From a virus: a stretch of 32,541 bases of DNA. Below are positions 5,442-32,241 of the stretch, piece by piece. The translations under genes were made by a program, and so were the position numbers. The stretch lies in IMG/VR virus record IMGVR_UViG_3300036814_001206, positions 1-32,541 of that record. One strand, written 5' to 3'. How positions within the stretch are numbered: position 1 is the first letter of the stretch; every line of letters begins with the position of its first letter. The notes below the pieces were generated by a model, which saw nothing but the letters and a program-made list of their open reading frames with translations, was not told the DNA's origin and did not search any database.

Positions 5442-6024
5442 TTGTGCCTCGGCGATTGCCATGTTTGTATTGTTCAGGAAATTTTTTAATCATATCATCA
5501 ATTTTATCTGGCGTCAGAAGAACAGGCTGACTAGAGGACTTGTTGGTCTTTCTAGTCTGATAAGCAGATGAAGCCTTTGCCAAAGCCATAATATCAGATG
5601 GGACAGGAGGCCATGCGTTTTTTTCAGAGTTAGACGAAGAAAACCAGGAGTTAAAAGCGCATCTAAGCTCTTTTGTCGCCATAGACATGCACAGTCTACT
5701 CCAAGCTGCGCGCTCAGTTGCAAAATCCATCTCTTCTTTGACTCTAGCGGTGTACTTATGCAAATAACGCATGGATAACTCATGCATAATTTCTGTGACA
5801 TCATCAGAAACATCATCAGGATCTTTGATCTGCTCGATAGGGGCAAAGAGTGATCTTTCACCCCTGTTTTGTGGTAAGGCCGTCAACGATTGGATCCCGT
5901 CCACCGTTGGCTTGCACGAGAGCGAGGTAACGTTGCTTGGTTCGTTGGGCTTGATTAGTGGAAGATTGTTTTGACTGTTTATTCTTTCCAATATTTTTGA
6001 TTTTGGCTTTTCTAAGTCCATCAT
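5428..6024 (-). CDS. Probable replication protein, lambda P-like helicase loader
   Basis: The gene encodes 198 residues from ATG 6024, which has GAGGA five bases upstream; an ATG at 6036 in the same frame is the alternative. The N-terminal 60 residues are polar. A helical core contains AAWSRLCM and then NAWPPVPSDIMALAKAS, similar in layout to the W-P-P-x-P segment of phage P-type helicase loaders (inference; no catalytic motif exists to confirm). It follows the initiator gene and overlaps its last 167 bases in another frame, echoing lambda O and P. Its job would be to bring the host DnaB helicase to the origin. No Walker motif is visible. Confidence 0.45.
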   Translation of the reverse strand: MMDLEKPKSKILERINSQNNLPLIKPNEPSNVTSLSCKPTVDGIQSLTALPQNRGERSLFAPIEQIKDPDDVSDDVTEIMHELSMRYLHKYTARVKEEMDFATERAAWSRLCMSMATKELRCAFNSWFSSSNSEKNAWPPVPSDIMALAKASSAYQTRKTNKSSSQPVLLTPDKIDDMIKKFPEQYKHGNRRGTIEKI

Positions 6025-6925
6025 AGTATTCCTCATCGTTTGGCGGCTCCCGTTCGAGCCATTTGTTTACAAAACTGTTTGGAGTTCTTGAAGTTTTACC
6101 GAGACCGCCGATAAACATATTATTTATGTCCCTTTCTCCCCAGTATAAATAATCATTTATTAAATATTGCTCTAGCAGATTATCTGCCATTCGACCAAAG
6201 AACACGTCTCTTTGCCATTGGGGCCAGCTAGACCATTGGTCACGAGCTGCCTTCTTTCCTGTTCTTCTAAATCCTTGAGTTACTTTGTTGTAAAACGCAA
6301 ACATTTGGTCGAAATCTAACTCACAAGAATTTTTATTTTGTAAATAAGATATTTGTAATGTCTTTGTTATTATATAAAGGTATAAATCGGCTATGTAGTT
6401 CGGATTCTGACCGACAAAAGCCGTATTCTGAACTACAAGATGCAAATCCTCTAGTGTTTCATCGCCCTCTATGTAGTTCAGATTCTGAATCACATCATTG
6501 CTCATTCTTAGTAAATTTGTCCCTTTGATTGATGCATTAAAAGTACAAGGTTTCATTTCTATTTCTTCCTTCTTTTTAAGAACTGGCATCTTAAAATTAG
6601 ATCTCAATTTCTCTAAAAGATCCATATTTAGCGAATACCAGAGCTGATGATTATGGCGACCGGGGCCTTGTTTTAAGCAAATAATACCTTGCTCTTTAAG
6701 ATTTTTTATCGCCAACCGGATAGATGTTCTTTTGGCCAGAAATACTAGTTCATGCTCCCACTCATCAGAGGTCTTATATATCCCTTCTTCTGGCTTACGT
6801 TTGGTGAGCTTACACCAGTGAATAATTTGCTGAATAATAAAGGCTTCGGTTACGCCAAATAGGCCCGCATCCTGAAGGTGCAGACCGCGAAAAGTAGTAT
6901 CTTTTTTAGATATTCTGGTAACCAT
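5858..6925 (-). CDS. Replication initiator with N-terminal winged helix (lambda O-like)
   Basis: The gene encodes 355 residues from ATG 6925 (MVTRISKK). The open frame extends back to 7081 but would cover both divergent promoters and the next gene, so I rejected the longer start. Residues about 10-100 read like a winged helix: DAGLFGVTEAFIIQQIIHWC, then SIRLAIKNLKEQGII and a Gly-rich wing. The C-terminal 60 residues are basic and low in structure. The gene carries iterons at 6391-6488, inside codons about 146-178, plus an AT-rich stretch, as lambda O carries its origin. The pair with the loader gene supports a role in origin recognition. Confidence 0.65.
   Translation of the reverse strand: MVTRISKKDTTFRGLHLQDAGLFGVTEAFIIQQIIHWCKLTKRKPEEGIYKTSDEWEHELVFLAKRTSIRLAIKNLKEQGIICLKQGPGRHNHQLWYSLNMDLLEKLRSNFKMPVLKKKEEIEMKPCTFNASIKGTNLLRMSNDVIQNLNYIEGDETLEDLHLVVQNTAFVGQNPNYIADLYLYIITKTLQISYLQNKNSCELDFDQMFAFYNKVTQGFRRTGKKAARDQWSSWPQWQRDVFFGRMADNLLEQYLINDYLYWGERDINNMFIGGLGKTSRTPNSFVNKWLEREPPNDEEYYDGLRKAKIKNIGKNKQSKQSSTNQAQRTKQRYLALVQANGGRDPIVDGLTTKQG
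6326..6491. other. Probable replication origin: iterons plus AT-rich region inside the initiator gene
   Basis: Two direct copies of a 20-base element (6391-6410 and 6469-6488) agree at 19 of 20 positions. An inverted partial copy sits between them at 6423-6440, sharing TGTAGTTCAGA. The copy at 6469 contains a perfect dyad, TTCAGA-T-TCTGAA (6477-6489). The flank at 6326-6388 is almost all A and T and could be the unwinding element. The layout of iterons beside an AT-rich stretch within the initiator gene is that of lambda ori (established for lambda; inferred here). Confidence 0.6.
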
Positions 6926-6956
6926 AATTCTACTTATACAAATGTGAGCTAAAACT

Positions 6957-7035: not shown

Positions 7036-7311
7036 ATGGACAACCAGAGAGATTATCAAAAAAGCAGTCTTGAGAAGGCAATCAAGATATATGGCAATAG
7101 CAAAGAGGCATTATGCGAACAATTAGGAATTACTAAGCATCATTTACATTATTATTATGGGCCAAAGTCTAAGGGATTGCTCCAACCGCATCATTGTTTG
7201 AGACTAACTGAGCTTTTTCCTACCTGGTTTATGGCTGAAAGATTACACCCTAATGTATATCCAGCTGACGTGGCCAGATTAATTAGAAAAAAACTTAAAT
7301 CAAAAAAATAG
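7036..7311 (+). CDS. YdaS/Cro-like helix-turn-helix regulator
   Basis: The gene encodes 91 residues. The pattern LEKAIKIYGNSKEALCEQLG, then ITKHHLHYYY, followed by a basic loop and the C-terminal ERLHPNVYP, matches the Cro/YdaS family, whose members end the domain with R-P-x-x-Y/W-P (family knowledge). The ribosome site is GAGGGG, 9 bases ahead of the ATG. It is the first gene rightward from paired divergent promoters, so it probably controls both the replication operon and its own. No larger CI-like repressor is visible, so it may be the only lysis-lysogeny regulator, or a Cro whose partner is missing. Confidence 0.7.
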   Translation: MDNQRDYQKSSLEKAIKIYGNSKEALCEQLGITKHHLHYYYGPKSKGLLQPHHCLRLTELFPTWFMAERLHPNVYPADVARLIRKKLKSKK

Positions 7312-12737: not shown

Positions 12738-13409
12738 ATGAGAAAGTATATTAAAAAATTAATGGTATTAGTTGTATTTTTTGCTATAAATATAGCAAAT
12801 GCAGATAATCTTTATATGGGCGTGCAGGGAGGATGGGAAAATTTAACAATGGAAGGTAATTTATCATTGTTACCTCAGCCACTTCCTACCACCATCATAG
12901 TGCCATATCATAGCAAATCAAACAGCGGCATGTTTGATTTTTATCTTGGAGTTCAAAAGAAAGTCTCAAAACGTATACTAATTGCTGAAGAATGGGACAT
13001 CTTAGTGCCATTAGGGAAAACCAGTGTAGAACATTATGGTACAGTGGCAGATCAAAAATTTTCTTACAATTTGGGAGCAAGTTTGAAGTTTGGATTTTTT
13101 TATAATAAAAACGGAAATGTGTATGCTCGTGGTGGATTAGGGGTTGGTAGCTTTGCGGGCGGAATAACCAAACAGGGTGGTGCAACTGGACTATTTCCCA
13201 CGGTTAAGGGTGATAAGATTTTCTACTACCGCGTAGGATTAGGATTGAACCAACAGTTTAGTGATCATTGGTCAGCGCACCTAGAATACGACTATTACAA
13301 ATATTCCCCTTTTAGCTTGAGCAAATTTTCGTATTGGACTAATGTAATAACTAAAATTCGCCCTTCAATGAATGTTTTAATGGGTGGTTTAAATTATATT
13401 TTTAACTAA
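12738..13409 (+). CDS. Phage-encoded outer-membrane beta-barrel protein
   Basis: The gene encodes 223 residues. A signal peptide with Lys-rich start and hydrophobic core ends at ANA-D (about residue 22). The mature part alternates hydrophobic and polar residues with many Gly and aromatics (LYMGVQGGWE, FDFYLGVQKK, NVYARGGLGVGSF, FYYRVGLGLNQQF, SAHLEYDYYKY, MNVLMGGLNYIF), consistent with an eight-stranded OmpA- or Lom-type barrel ending in the outer membrane. AAGGAG lies ahead of the ATG. Such phage barrels alter the lysogen surface, for example masking receptors or aiding adhesion (known for Lom-like proteins; inferred here). It leads a cassette of coupled genes. Confidence 0.8.
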   Translation: MRKYIKKLMVLVVFFAINIANADNLYMGVQGGWENLTMEGNLSLLPQPLPTTIIVPYHSKSNSGMFDFYLGVQKKVSKRILIAEEWDILVPLGKTSVEHYGTVADQKFSYNLGASLKFGFFYNKNGNVYARGGLGVGSFAGGITKQGGATGLFPTVKGDKIFYYRVGLGLNQQFSDHWSAHLEYDYYKYSPFSLSKFSYWTNVITKIRPSMNVLMGGLNYIFN

Positions 13410-13770: not shown

Positions 13771-14063
13771 CATTTAAAGGATGGATGAGCCTATGGGTGA
13801 GCGACGTAATAGATGCTGTTGACGAGCATTGTACACAGAGAATAGACAAACTTGAACGCTCAATAAAAACAAGATTGGTTAAATTACACCATCTTCAATC
13901 TGAGATTACAAGATTAGATACCTCAATCGGTCTGACTGACTATGCTGTTGAGGTGCGCCTTAATAAAATTGAGCGCGACATAGAGGATATTATTAAGCAC
14001 GACTATATTAGAAGCAATCACGGCATAATTAAAGCAACTGATTGGTATAAGGAGGAAAAATGA
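13767..14063 (+). CDS. Coiled-coil protein coupled to the lipoprotein
   Basis: The gene encodes 98 residues from the ATG at 13767, which overlaps the lipoprotein stop. The region from about 25 to 80 is a probable coiled coil (RIDKLERSIK, HHLQSEITRLD, LNKIERDIEDI). The end YIRSNHGIIKATDW resembles the end of the 56-residue gene at 14329 (YIKSN), and both have a start resembling ID-x-LER. They may be distant duplicates. No signal peptide is seen. It flanks the portal-fragment gene and overlaps it by four bases. Confidence 0.65.
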   Translation: MTFKGWMSLWVSDVIDAVDEHCTQRIDKLERSIKTRLVKLHHLQSEITRLDTSIGLTDYAVEVRLNKIERDIEDIIKHDYIRSNHGIIKATDWYKEEK

Positions 14064-14332
14064 CTGAAGAGATTAATAAAAAAAATATATATCAACTTGT
14101 AAATCTTCCGGTCAAATACATTGAGAACGAATGGCCCCATGCTAAGTTGACGAGAAAACTTAAAAGTTTAATAGTGAGTGATCCTAATATGGTTGTAGAA
14201 ATCGTCGAGGGTTCTATGTGGTTATCTGATCAAATATTGACTGAAGAAAAAAGATGGTGTTATTTTTTATATTGCATAAATCATAAATCGTTTTTATCCA
14301 AAGAAATTACCAAAAAAAGGGGGAATATATGA
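14060..14332 (+). CDS. Stand-alone portal-protein fragment homologue
   Basis: The gene encodes 90 residues, with ATG overlapping the previous stop (ATGA) and GGAGG 5 bases ahead. Residues 10-82 align along their whole length with residues 175-246 of this phage's portal. Shared positions include W-P-x-A-x-LT, D-P, VEI-x-EG and WCYF, about 23 identities in 73 aligned positions with one two-residue gap. It lies on the opposite strand from the portal and in an accessory cassette with barrel and lipoprotein genes. The reading frame is intact and coupled at both ends, so it is not debris. A plausible role is interference with portal assembly of a competitor, but this is inference. Confidence 0.8.
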   Translation: MTEEINKKNIYQLVNLPVKYIENEWPHAKLTRKLKSLIVSDPNMVVEIVEGSMWLSDQILTEEKRWCYFLYCINHKSFLSKEITKKRGNI

Positions 14333-29038: not shown

Positions 29039-29875
29039 TTAAGATTCATCGCATTGAATTTCGATCACACCTTTAGGTAGCAATACACTTGCCCCTAAAC
29101 GCATGCGAGAAATTGTCAACCAAGATTGGATATTTGGATTCCAATCGGTCTCAACAGTAGGTGTCATTGAATAAGCACGACCTAATGCATCCATCTGCCA
29201 TGCGAAACAAGAACGTATATTACCGACTTTAGGAATACCGCCTTCCTGTCTTTCGCCGATAGTGACGATTTTAAAACCGAGGAATGTATCAATCTTGCCG
29301 TTAACCAATGTACGATTCATGTTATATAAAACGTTAGTTGGCTCGTCTTCGCCCAATAAGGCAGAAAGCTGGCTGGGATTTATGATTAATACTCTATCAT
29401 CAGGGTCCACATTTTGCTCATCCATCTGAGTAGCAGCTTGGCGTAGCTTAGCTACAGTCATGTTGACACCACCATCAGCAATGATATTAGCAGCTGGCAA
29501 AGTTGCAGCGGCTAATGCATTGATCAATGTTTGATCTTCTCTCCTTCCAGCGCTTTTCGCATGTACCTTTCCAAGCTGACCTAATACGTTTACCTGAAGC
29601 TCAGCCTGTTGATATACGTCAACGGGAATATTGAGCACCCAGTTATCATAGGTCGTTAGGACCTGTTCGTATCCCGGATCTGATACTGGAACTTGACTTT
29701 GAAACGCACCACGTGCTTGCATGGCTGCTTCACCCTGTATAGGCCACTGAAAACTCGCACCCACACAATTATAAACAGACAAAGAAGTGTCCCCTAGGTA
29801 CGCAGCTCCTTGATAAACATTAGAAAATGTATCACGGAACATTTCAATTGCAACATTACTTAAACTTGCTGGCAT
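29039..29875 (-). CDS. Major capsid protein
   Basis: The gene encodes 278 residues. It is shorter than T7 gp10 (about 345), but the order of elements suits a HK97-type capsid: an N-terminal arm, a long helix around KLRQAATQMDEQNVDPDDR, then VLIINPSQLSALL, a typical P-domain strand, and GKIDTFLGFKIVTI. The C-terminal end has the common VETDWNPN and LGASVLLPKGVIEI. AATTTTTGGAGAATATC gives a good ribosome site. The scaffold gene, its normal upstream neighbour, is separated by the par module, so capsid must use its own promoter. Confidence 0.88.
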   Translation of the reverse strand: MPASLSNVAIEMFRDTFSNVYQGAAYLGDTSLSVYNCVGASFQWPIQGEAAMQARGAFQSQVPVSDPGYEQVLTTYDNWVLNIPVDVYQQAELQVNVLGQLGKVHAKSAGRREDQTLINALAAATLPAANIIADGGVNMTVAKLRQAATQMDEQNVDPDDRVLIINPSQLSALLGEDEPTNVLYNMNRTLVNGKIDTFLGFKIVTIGERQEGGIPKVGNIRSCFAWQMDALGRAYSMTPTVETDWNPNIQSWLTISRMRLGASVLLPKGVIEIQCDES

Positions 29876-30043
29876 TGATATTCTCCAAAAATTAAAAAGT
29901 TAAAAAAAATTAATTAGTCATCTTTAATCTTTGGAGGTGCGAGAGCTTGTCTCCGATTAAACGCTGACCTCAATGAGTTGAGGTTGTGCACAAGGCGTCC
30001 ATCAATCTTAAGGTTATATTAAAAGAGGTCATAAAGCAATCAA
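29876..30043 (-). promoter_or_regulatory. Leader and probable promoter of the capsid operon
   Basis: No gene is seen in 29876-30143. On the minus strand TTGATT (30038-30043) and TAATAT (30016-30021) with a 16-base spacer form a likely promoter. The leader then contains a perfect hairpin (29967-29984, ACCTCAA and TTGAGGT with a four-base loop) and a ten-base palindrome, TTGTGCACAA (29984-29993). These may protect capsid mRNA or bind a regulator. Confidence 0.5.
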
Positions 30044-30055
30044 TTTTCACCACTA

Positions 30056-30111
30056 ATTGTTGAGTTGTACAATTGTTTAATTAACTATTTGTTTAATTGT
30101 TTAATTGTTGG
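30056..30111 (+). repeat. Octamer array upstream of the par operon (candidate centromere or operator)
   Basis: Seven 8-base units lie in exact register, starting at 30056, 30064, 30072, 30080, 30088, 30096 and 30104. Consensus is ATTGTTTA: units at 30072 and 30096 are exact, 30088 differs by one base, 30056 and 30104 by one or two, and 30064 and 30080 are divergent. Ribbon-helix-helix partition proteins such as ParG and omega bind such short tandem repeats (established), and this operon encodes one. Confidence 0.7.
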
Positions 30112-30143: not shown

Positions 30144-30347
30144 ATGTCAGACAAAATTGAATGGCCAGATTTGAACAAATTCGAGGCAATGTTTCCGACT
30201 TTGAAAGGAAAATTAAAACCAATAAGTATATCTAAAGAGCTTGAGTCTGAGTTAAGGGATAAAAGCAAGGATTTGCTTGTTAATGGACCTAAAGGACAAG
30301 GGGTTCAAAATTATAATAAGCTTCCTAAACCAACGGTGGGGAAATGA
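30144..30347 (+). CDS. Unknown protein, first gene of the par module
   Basis: The gene encodes 67 residues. The ATG at 30144 has GGGGGAG ahead; an earlier in-frame ATG at 30105 lies inside the octamer array and has no ribosome site. It is polar and basic with ELESELRDKSKDLL as a probable helix and a Gly-Pro-Lys-rich tail. No family is recognised. Its stop overlaps the next start (ATGA), so both are translated together. Confidence 0.6.
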   Translation: MSDKIEWPDLNKFEAMFPTLKGKLKPISISKELESELRDKSKDLLVNGPKGQGVQNYNKLPKPTVGK

Positions 30348-30742: not shown

Positions 30743-31462
30743 TTGATAATAAGCTTTTTAAACCAGAAGGGTGGCTGTGGGAAAACAACGCTTGCCCTTA
30801 ATTTTGCATCCTACGTTGCGCGGGTACTTGAAAGATCACCGTTTGACGAGGTCGTTTTGATTGAGACTGACAGGCAAGAGTCCCTTTCTTACTGGCATAA
30901 CACTCGCCTAGACTCAGGAAAAGAATGCCTACAGATTCTATCGCTTCAGAGGGTTAATGCCCTCAGGAGCTTTAAACCATCCAAGAAAAAGCTGTATGTT
31001 CTTGATGGTGGTGGTATTGCAGATGATCTTTGCAGAGCCAGTATCAAACTGAGTGATTTGGTGGTTATCCCTATCAAAGCGTCGCCAATGGATATTTGGA
31101 GCATGGCGCCGATAACCACCTGGATTAAGGAACGTCAAGAGTTTACTGACGGGTCACCTAAATCATGCTATGCCCTTTCTATGACGCATCTAGGATCAAA
31201 GCTTGGCAAGGGGACTGTCGGAGAATTTGATGGGACTGATCTCGATTTAATACCTGGTTCAATTAAGGATAGAGTTATATATAAGAGCAGTGCCATGCAA
31301 GGGCTATCGGTTTTTGATGTGACAAAAGATTACACATCCAATGAGCTTTTGGCCAGACAGATTGCGGAGAATGAAATAAATTATTTGGCAACTAATATCC
31401 TTTCAAGAGTTGAAGTTGCTATACCGGACCCTATAGGAATTGGAGGAACATGCTGTGACTAA
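30743..31462 (+). CDS. ParA/ParF-like partition ATPase
   Basis: This is a Walker-type ATPase that moves plasmid copies apart on the nucleoid. It encodes 239 residues, the usual short type without an N-terminal DNA-binding domain (ParF class Ib, about 200-240). The start is TTG with AGGAGG seven bases upstream. The deviant Walker A is KGGCGKTT (residues 9-16, with the signature Lys 9), the A' box ends in VLIETDRQ, and Walker B is LYVLDGGGI. Downstream lies a ribbon-helix-helix gene in the ParG position. Absence of an integrase makes low-copy plasmid maintenance its likely job. Confidence 0.88.
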   Translation: MIISFLNQKGGCGKTTLALNFASYVARVLERSPFDEVVLIETDRQESLSYWHNTRLDSGKECLQILSLQRVNALRSFKPSKKKLYVLDGGGIADDLCRASIKLSDLVVIPIKASPMDIWSMAPITTWIKERQEFTDGSPKSCYALSMTHLGSKLGKGTVGEFDGTDLDLIPGSIKDRVIYKSSAMQGLSVFDVTKDYTSNELLARQIAENEINYLATNILSRVEVAIPDPIGIGGTCCD

Positions 31463-31676
31463 TATGATGCAAAGACCCGAGAAGATAAAAAAGGAAAAGA
31501 AATCAGCCATGGAGGACACAGAACTGAAGGTGGTTGTTAATCTCAGTGTAACCACTGACTTTAAAAAGATCCTTAAGACGTTTGCTGCTGACCAAGAGAT
31601 GACCATGTCTGCACTGATTGTTAAGGTGTTGAACGAGTACATGAACAATTGTTTAAATGCTGAATTAAACAATTAA
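31455..31676 (+). CDS. Ribbon-helix-helix protein, ParG-like
   Basis: The gene encodes 73 residues from a GTG at 31455, with GGAGG 8 bases ahead, overlapping the ParA stop by 8 bases. A TTG at 31440 in the same frame is the alternative. The N-terminal 28 residues are basic and flexible, followed by LKVVVNLSV (beta strand), then two helices, TTDFKKILKTFAADQE and MSALIVKVLNEYM. This order, flexible tail plus ribbon-helix-helix, and the length match ParG (about 75), which binds the centromere, activates ParF and represses its own operon (established for ParG). Confidence 0.8.
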   Translation: MTNMMQRPEKIKKEKKSAMEDTELKVVVNLSVTTDFKKILKTFAADQEMTMSALIVKVLNEYMNNCLNAELNN

Positions 31677-31689
31677 ACATTTAAACATA
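31666..31689 (-). repeat. Second octamer array, inverted, after the ribbon-helix-helix gene
   Basis: Three consecutive 8-base units start at 31666, 31674 and 31682. Their consensus TAAACA-A/T-T is the reverse complement of the ATTGTTTA repeat at 30056. The first unit is exact. The array overlaps the stop codon and the ribosome-site region of the next gene. Confidence 0.65.
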
Positions 31690-31707: not shown

Positions 31708-31887
31708 ATGAGCTGGCATGATCCAATTATATTTGCATTAGGATTCGCTAAATGTAAAAAAGACTTATATAAAGTAATTCGTGAAAAAGAACAACTTTCT
31801 AAGTTGTACCTGGACACTAAGCTGGAGCTAGATCGTGTAATGTGGAACCTATCTCAGGAAAATAAGAGAAAGAGCAAGGAGGGATAG
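31708..31887 (+). CDS. Small helical protein, possibly membrane-associated
   Basis: The gene encodes 59 residues behind AAAGGAG. A short hydrophobic start (PIIFALGFA, about 6-14) is followed by a charged coiled helix (REKEQLSKLYLDTKLELDRV). It follows the second octamer array, so a repressor bound there could silence it and the next two genes. No family is recognised. Confidence 0.6.
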   Translation: MSWHDPIIFALGFAKCKKDLYKVIREKEQLSKLYLDTKLELDRVMWNLSQENKRKSKEG

Positions 31888-31889
31888 GG

Positions 31890-32048
31890 ATGAGTAAAGA
31901 TATTTGGATTATTCCTAGTGATGGGGAGATTCGACCCAATCGTTTAAGAATCGAGCCAGGTGAAATTATACCTGGCGGTCGTGGAAAACCAGTTAAGATT
32001 AACATCCCGGATGGCAAGGAGGATAAAAATGATAACCACACTACTTAA
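31890..32048 (+). CDS. Small basic beta-type protein
   Basis: The gene encodes 52 residues, starting two bases after the previous stop with AAGGAGGGA inside the previous gene as ribosome site. It contains IWIIPSDGEIRPNRLRIEPG and then GGRGKPVKINIPDG, probably short strands and turns. Its last 20 bases overlap the next gene in another frame. No family is recognised. Confidence 0.55.
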   Translation: MSKDIWIIPSDGEIRPNRLRIEPGEIIPGGRGKPVKINIPDGKEDKNDNHTT

Positions 32049-32241
32049 AATCGGATCAGTCATTTGCATCACAGAAGGTATCATACTTAGTACCTTCTTG
32101 ACTGGGTTCGCTGTATATGTTTTATACTCATTCTGGGAGTCTTGGCTGGCCGGCTCTTCAAACGGAATTGATAGTGAAACAGCCAACCACTCCCCTACCC
32201 TATCGAAAAATACCACTAAACAGCCCCCCGAGCAAATTTAA
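32029..32241 (+). CDS. Small membrane protein ending the par module
   Basis: The gene encodes 70 residues from the ATG at 32029, which has AGGAGG 5 bases ahead. An open frame back to 31960 would overlap the preceding gene more and lacks a good ribosome site. The first half is one long hydrophobic segment or two short ones (about residues 6-35, with VICITEGIILSTFLTGFAVY), and the rest is polar, Ser-, Thr- and Pro-rich. It ends 28 bases before the convergent scaffold stop. Confidence 0.6.
   Translation: MITTLLKIGSVICITEGIILSTFLTGFAVYVLYSFWESWLAGSSNGIDSETANHSPTLSKNTTKQPPEQI

Follow-up and report, generated by a model that had tools for sequence, protein, structure and literature searches.

In the ParF-ParG-parH system of TP228, parH is composed of tetramer boxes with AT-rich spacers, and a role as an arginine finger has been proposed for the ParG tail (PMC7308502). 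Comparable modules are also known from phages. Mycobacteriophage RedRock lacks an integrase, carries a parABS system with two 8-bp repeat arrays and is kept extrachromosomally at 2.4 copies per cell (PMC7157519), while the prophage of Ochrobactrum podovirus POI1126, which has partition-like genes, replicates as a plasmid (PMC5492332), and metagenomic phage-plasmids carrying ParA/ParB were reported earlier (PMC4490671). Here, we analyzed a podovirus genome in which a ParA-type ATPase gene, a ribbon-helix-helix (RHH) gene and two repeat arrays lie together among the virion genes.

The window, that is, the whole stretch of DNA that was analyzed, is a complete virus record of 32,541 bases, and 127 bp are repeated exactly at its two termini. 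Across the join of these ends the scaffold gene runs uninterrupted, and a second contig (L002), 99-100% identical to the window, spans this join; L063, a contig from another sample, is also 99-100% identical where it overlaps. The terminal repeat, the scaffold readthrough and the spanning contig together indicate that the molecule assembles as a circle, which bears out the preliminary description of a complete genome. Such an assembly would be expected equally from an episome, from a virion genome that is permuted or from terminal repeats that were collapsed. The 127-bp repeat was not accepted as proving a plasmid, because it shows circular assembly only; 127 bp is a common assembler k-mer length. 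Portal, capsid, tail, terminase and holin genes of the T7-like podovirus kind were recognized by Pfam and PHROG on this par-bearing record, so the window carries virion and plasmid maintenance genes on a single replicon, as phage-plasmids do.

The par genes form an island on the plus strand between the capsid and scaffold genes, both of which are on the minus strand. The operon begins upstream of parA with two extra ORFs from 30144, which had been missed in the preliminary description. The island and its borders are as follows, with ORF starts assigned from the sequence.

29039 to 29875, minus strand: gene for the major capsid protein, bounding the island on the left (Pfam Phage_capsid_2, 2.6e-40)
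30054 to 30109, no strand: left 8-bp repeat array, candidate centromere and operator; 7 degenerate copies, consensus TAATTGTT (TRF period 8)
30144 to 30347, plus strand: 67-aa ORF that opens the operon; no family match, absent from the relative L003
30344 to 30730, plus strand: 128-aa ORF, second gene of the operon, overlapping the preceding ORF by 4 bases; no family match
30743 to 31462, plus strand: ParA/ParF-type Walker ATPase, 239 aa, TTG start; small type without N-terminal DNA-binding domain
31455 to 31676, plus strand: RHH ParG-like protein, 73 aa, predicted to bind the centromere; GTG start after GGAGG
31663 to 31687, no strand: right array of 8-bp repeats, with 3.1 copies of AATTAAAC, lying over the RHH gene at its 3' end
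31708 to 31887, plus strand: 59-aa ORF within the par island
31890 to 32048, plus strand: 52-aa ORF within the par island
32029 to 32241, plus strand: 70-aa predicted membrane protein with a YSFWES motif, kept in the par-less relatives L054 and L055
32270 to 32541, minus strand: scaffold gene (3' part), bounding the island on the right and continuing over the join into 1-768

The 128-aa ORF matched nothing in IMG/VR except the identical phage, and neither PADLOC nor Pfam found anything for the extra island ORFs. The strand of the island, opposite to the late genes, is what would be expected for lysogenic expression. In L054 (8709-9050) and L055 (6895-7240), a near-consensus sigma-70 promoter (TTGTCA, TATAAT) stands before the opposite-strand YSFWES membrane-protein ORF. 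We also observed a hairpin-rich element of ~100 bp directly upstream of the capsid gene, in the capsid mRNA leader on the minus strand, which is conserved in four relatives (window 29900-30015; L003 3380-3470; L054 8900-9040; L055 7090-7230). A few of its pairs vary on both sides, which is weak evidence from four sequences, and Rfam gave no RNA family match, this element included.

The ATPase had been described as ParA type with the motif KGGCGKTT, and this is confirmed. The motif is a Walker A of the deviant type at residues 9-16, and the protein begins at the ATPase fold. It scores above the cut-offs of Pfam AAA_31, MipZ and CbiA, matches the PHROG ParA-like family at 1e-27, finds ParF of TP228 as its top PDB match (1.3e-14), and keeps every invariant residue of a 15-member ParA alignment. 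Its score against NCBIfam NF041546 (ParA family partition ATPase), still by far the best model, is 143.9 bits versus a cut-off of 180, marking it as a divergent member. In the ParA tree, the ATPases of the window and two podovirus relatives form one clade (support 96/94) adjoining plasmid parA-parG loci, although the long branches of this clade call for caution.

The start of the RHH gene overlaps the end of parA by exactly 8 bases, so this overlap and the length of 73 residues had been given correctly. Single-sequence searches with the 73-aa protein returned weak RHH matches (RHH_10, E = 0.004-0.0065; PHROG Arc-like, 8e-5), whereas a 12-member profile, comprising this protein and eleven partners of related phage ParAs, matched the RHH proteins 56B (6e-5), omega (7e-5) and ParG (0.03) in the PDB. 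On these profile matches, the protein is assigned a predicted RHH fold, in line with the earlier claim. The Pfam ParG model PF09274 did not match the window protein and gave the L003 protein 14.6 bits against a cut-off of 21.4; a profile of the three podovirus RHH proteins aligns with plasmid ParG-type proteins across 57 columns. All five proteins, the three podovirus ones and the plasmid ParG-type ones, share an N-terminal Arg-Pro, which, as a guess by analogy, might be an arginine finger.

The two 8-bp arrays constitute a third part of the module beside the ATPase and the RHH protein, one that the preliminary description did not include. The right array is inverted relative to the left. Among 32,512 windows of 30 bases covering the whole genome, a lag-8 identity of 0.77 was reached only in the two par-flanking arrays, and AT-rich windows elsewhere reached 0.64 at most. 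Within each array, lag 8 exceeded all 1000 dinucleotide shuffles, and lags 4-7 and 9-13 did not. Short periodic, centromere-like repeats beside the genes, as in ParF/ParG (type Ib) systems, are found at both operon ends. A sigma-70 promoter candidate in the left array did not rise above shuffles.

The same arrangement recurs in relatives, which are few and all metagenomic contigs. In L003 (capsid 72%), an ATPase-RHH pair lies between the capsid and scaffold genes on the opposite strand, as in the window, and in G010/L089 (portal 50%) the pair occupies the same site in the same relative orientation. The right array likewise lies over the end of the RHH gene in both; a weaker array is also found upstream of parA in L003 and a long one in L089. 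The repeat unit differs across the three relatives, being TAATTGTT in the window, TATAAATG in L003 and of the GCATCTTG type in L089. In other phage contigs (L004-L020), ParA overlaps an RHH-type partner of 66-70 aa, and several have 8-bp arrays upstream of parA, including perfect TAGTAAAC 8-bp repeats in L006. With paired centromere-like arrays, synteny in three genomes and homology to plasmid parA-parG loci, the ParF/ParG-like partition proposed earlier is well supported, and the window locus is very probably a functional segregation module of this type.

No tyrosine or serine integrase (PF00589, PF00239) was found in the entire record, with positive controls run, and no recombinase or transposase was among the PHROG matches of the scanned window ORFs, in agreement with the earlier remark that no integrase or transposase is visible. 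The close relatives of the window also lack tyrosine and serine recombinases. An ordinary integrating prophage was rejected, the window being without a recombinase. Since an integrase-less phage here carries a complete plasmid-type segregation module, its maintenance in the host probably takes the form of a plasmid, and we regard plasmid-type (episomal) lysogeny as likely. What is seen directly comprises the genes and arrays, the synteny and homology, and the lack of an integrase; the mechanism that we propose would run as follows. The RHH protein would bind both flanking 8-bp arrays as the centromere and, at the left array, would repress its own operon. ParA-ATP on the host nucleoid would pull the protein-coated arrays apart, giving each daughter cell a copy of the phage genome, and the prophage of this temperate podovirus would be kept as a low-copy circular plasmid with no integration. 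Taken together, a type Ib partition module in a temperate podovirus with a low-copy circular plasmid prophage is the reading that we consider probable.

Two further genes of the window concern replication and its control.

5858 to 6926, minus strand: O/DnaD-like replication protein (PHROG DnaD-like 6e-12, O-like 4.6e-9), the start being placed near an internal ATG
7036 to 7311, plus strand: YdaS/Cro-like helix-turn-helix gene, 91 aa, a candidate for the switch regulator; oriented divergently from the O-like gene, with weak Pfam YdaS/CI matches

Judged by its matches, the O/DnaD-like protein is probably an initiator or helicase loader. No P-like replication protein was identified in the window, and the repeats inside the O-like gene (two 20-bp copies and one partial) are suggestive at best of an origin; for the O/P-type origin proposed earlier, which stays hypothetical, the O/DnaD-like protein was the only component detected. 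Counterparts of the YdaS/Cro-like gene occur in G004 and G010, and no S24-type repressor (Peptidase_S24) was found. Elsewhere in the window, a predicted outer-membrane beta-barrel gene (12738-13409; Pfam OMP_b-brl 2e-6, just below the cut-off) is followed by a lipoprotein-like ORF and possibly has a role in lysogenic conversion or exclusion. A 90-aa ORF at 14060-14332 is similar to an inner segment of the portal protein (1048-2658; about 35% across 75 aa) and may be a partial duplication of it.

Comparison with par-less genomes shows how the module may have evolved. G004, whose capsid protein is 71% identical to that of the window, has neither parA nor an integrase; G004 and L055 lack parA and keep just the small membrane-protein ORF of the island. 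Both G010 and G004 look circular, the ends overlapping at 95% over 280 bp in G010 and exactly over 99 bp in G004. In the portal tree, G004/L055 nest within the par-bearing group with moderate support, as do L054/L055, and this nesting favors ancestral presence followed by loss over the less likely course of repeated gain. We tentatively suggest, as a possibility rather than a probability, that an integrase-less lineage of T7-like podoviruses inherited the ParF/ParG module from a common ancestor at a fixed site in the virion cluster, that the units of the paired centromeres diverge in step with the RHH protein, and that the module disappeared on at least one occasion (G004/L055). If so, the group would have had episomal lysogeny from its ancestor onward, as a trait that can be lost, and which of its members are incompatible would depend on their type of centromere. 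MEP301, the best cultured relative by capsid, has no such module at the corresponding place, and none of the cultured-phage records matched in the capsid search is among the matches listed for the window ParA. Several ankyrin-repeat proteins are encoded by the par-minus sister genome G004 (L100 157-3320), unusual for a small podovirus and a hint of a host that interacts with eukaryotes.

The par-minus relative also bears on whether true lysogeny is involved. Because G004 is circular without parA or an integrase, the absence of an integrase is general in the group and does not imply a plasmid state. This, with the ambiguity of circular assemblies, the failure to find an S24 repressor and the searches of plasmids and GTDB contigs that gave no related capsid, weighs against the extrachromosomal phage-plasmid of the preliminary description, which nevertheless remains plausible and the best supported reading. 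The module might instead act during a carrier state or pseudolysogeny, partitioning the phage DNA there, or space genomes while a slow host is being infected, without true repressed lysogeny. A close group without integrases, the circular par-minus G004 and the failure to find an S24 repressor are in keeping with this, but three genomes have a YdaS/Cro-like regulator gene divergent to that for replication, the island is oriented opposite to the late genes, and the phages with such modules that were studied experimentally are temperate (PMC7157519), so that we consider such a state unlikely.

Two other readings deny the module its segregation role, wholly or in the main. The differing units of the three relatives (TAATTGTT, TATAAATG and GCATCTTG) resemble incompatibility groups, as if the arrays and RHH protein served mainly in competition, by making the phage incompatible with plasmids already resident or with phages related to it; however, a functional module yields incompatibility as a by-product and titration alone needs no intact ATPase, which leaves this very improbable. 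Nor is it at all likely, with still slightly less in its favor, that the par genes are recent plasmid cargo without function in the phage. Their patchy distribution (absent from G004 and L055) would suit such cargo, but the ParAs of the three podoviruses group in one clade, the portal tree places L054/L055 within the par-bearing group with moderate support, the ATPase motifs are intact, and arrays are retained in each par-bearing podovirus. Episomal lysogeny served by a working partition module thus remains our preferred reading. A par module with recognizable centromeres then offers a concrete sequence marker of plasmid-type persistence, present in several uncultured relatives, and par-plus and par-minus sister genomes differing at one site provide a natural comparison.

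With regard to known systems, the window shares with TP228 a small ParA without an N-terminal DNA-binding domain, an RHH adaptor and a short-box centromere, but differs in having an array at both operon ends, two extra ORFs before parA, an RHH protein that falls below the Pfam ParG model and a phage-borne module. The closest plasmid ParA (35% identical) is that of the Aeromonas plasmid NZ_LT635660 (L093), which has an RHH partner. At its locus, parA is directly preceded by four ACTCATTT-like 8-bp units and followed by an annotated ParG. The array agrees with parH as described in the literature, tetramer boxes with AT-rich spacers (PMC7308502); unlike the window, L093 is a small mobilizable plasmid with another repeat unit.

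No related capsid was found in the plasmid collection (PLSDB) or in GTDB genome contigs, the matches being metagenomic viral contigs only. The terminase was too general for the plasmid search, and the portal gave five distant matches, of which the Acinetobacter plasmids were informative. These podovirus-like plasmids (pZS-1, pAI02 and pTS37365) are circular and have a portal related to that of the window; pZS-1 has a Phage_capsid_2 capsid, and in pZS-1 and pAI02 ParA is followed by a TacA/RHH-like gene. In contrast to the window, their par genes are not between capsid and scaffold genes, no 8-bp array was found in them, and their ParA belongs to another clade, indicating that podovirus-like elements captured par more than once. 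A more distant podovirus, G003 (L044 9989-16640), encodes ParA with a 123-aa partner as well as a XerC-like recombinase, has Rpn-type ORFs and a 555-aa protein, the latter possibly for replication, and is a candidate for another phage-plasmid.

RedRock resembles the window in lacking an integrase and in having parA-parB with two arrays of 8-bp repeats, a system that replaces integration in that phage, but its genome is different and it belongs to cluster A of the mycobacterial phages, and Mycobacterium phage ParAs are distant, partial matches to the window ParA. POI1126 differs in its 60-kb genome, its putative integrase and its membership of another podovirus group. Given the experimental precedents of RedRock and POI1126, the mechanism is ordinary rather than new, and a phage with a par module such as this one belongs to an already known kind, preceded by RedRock, POI1126 and the Acinetobacter podovirus-like plasmids.
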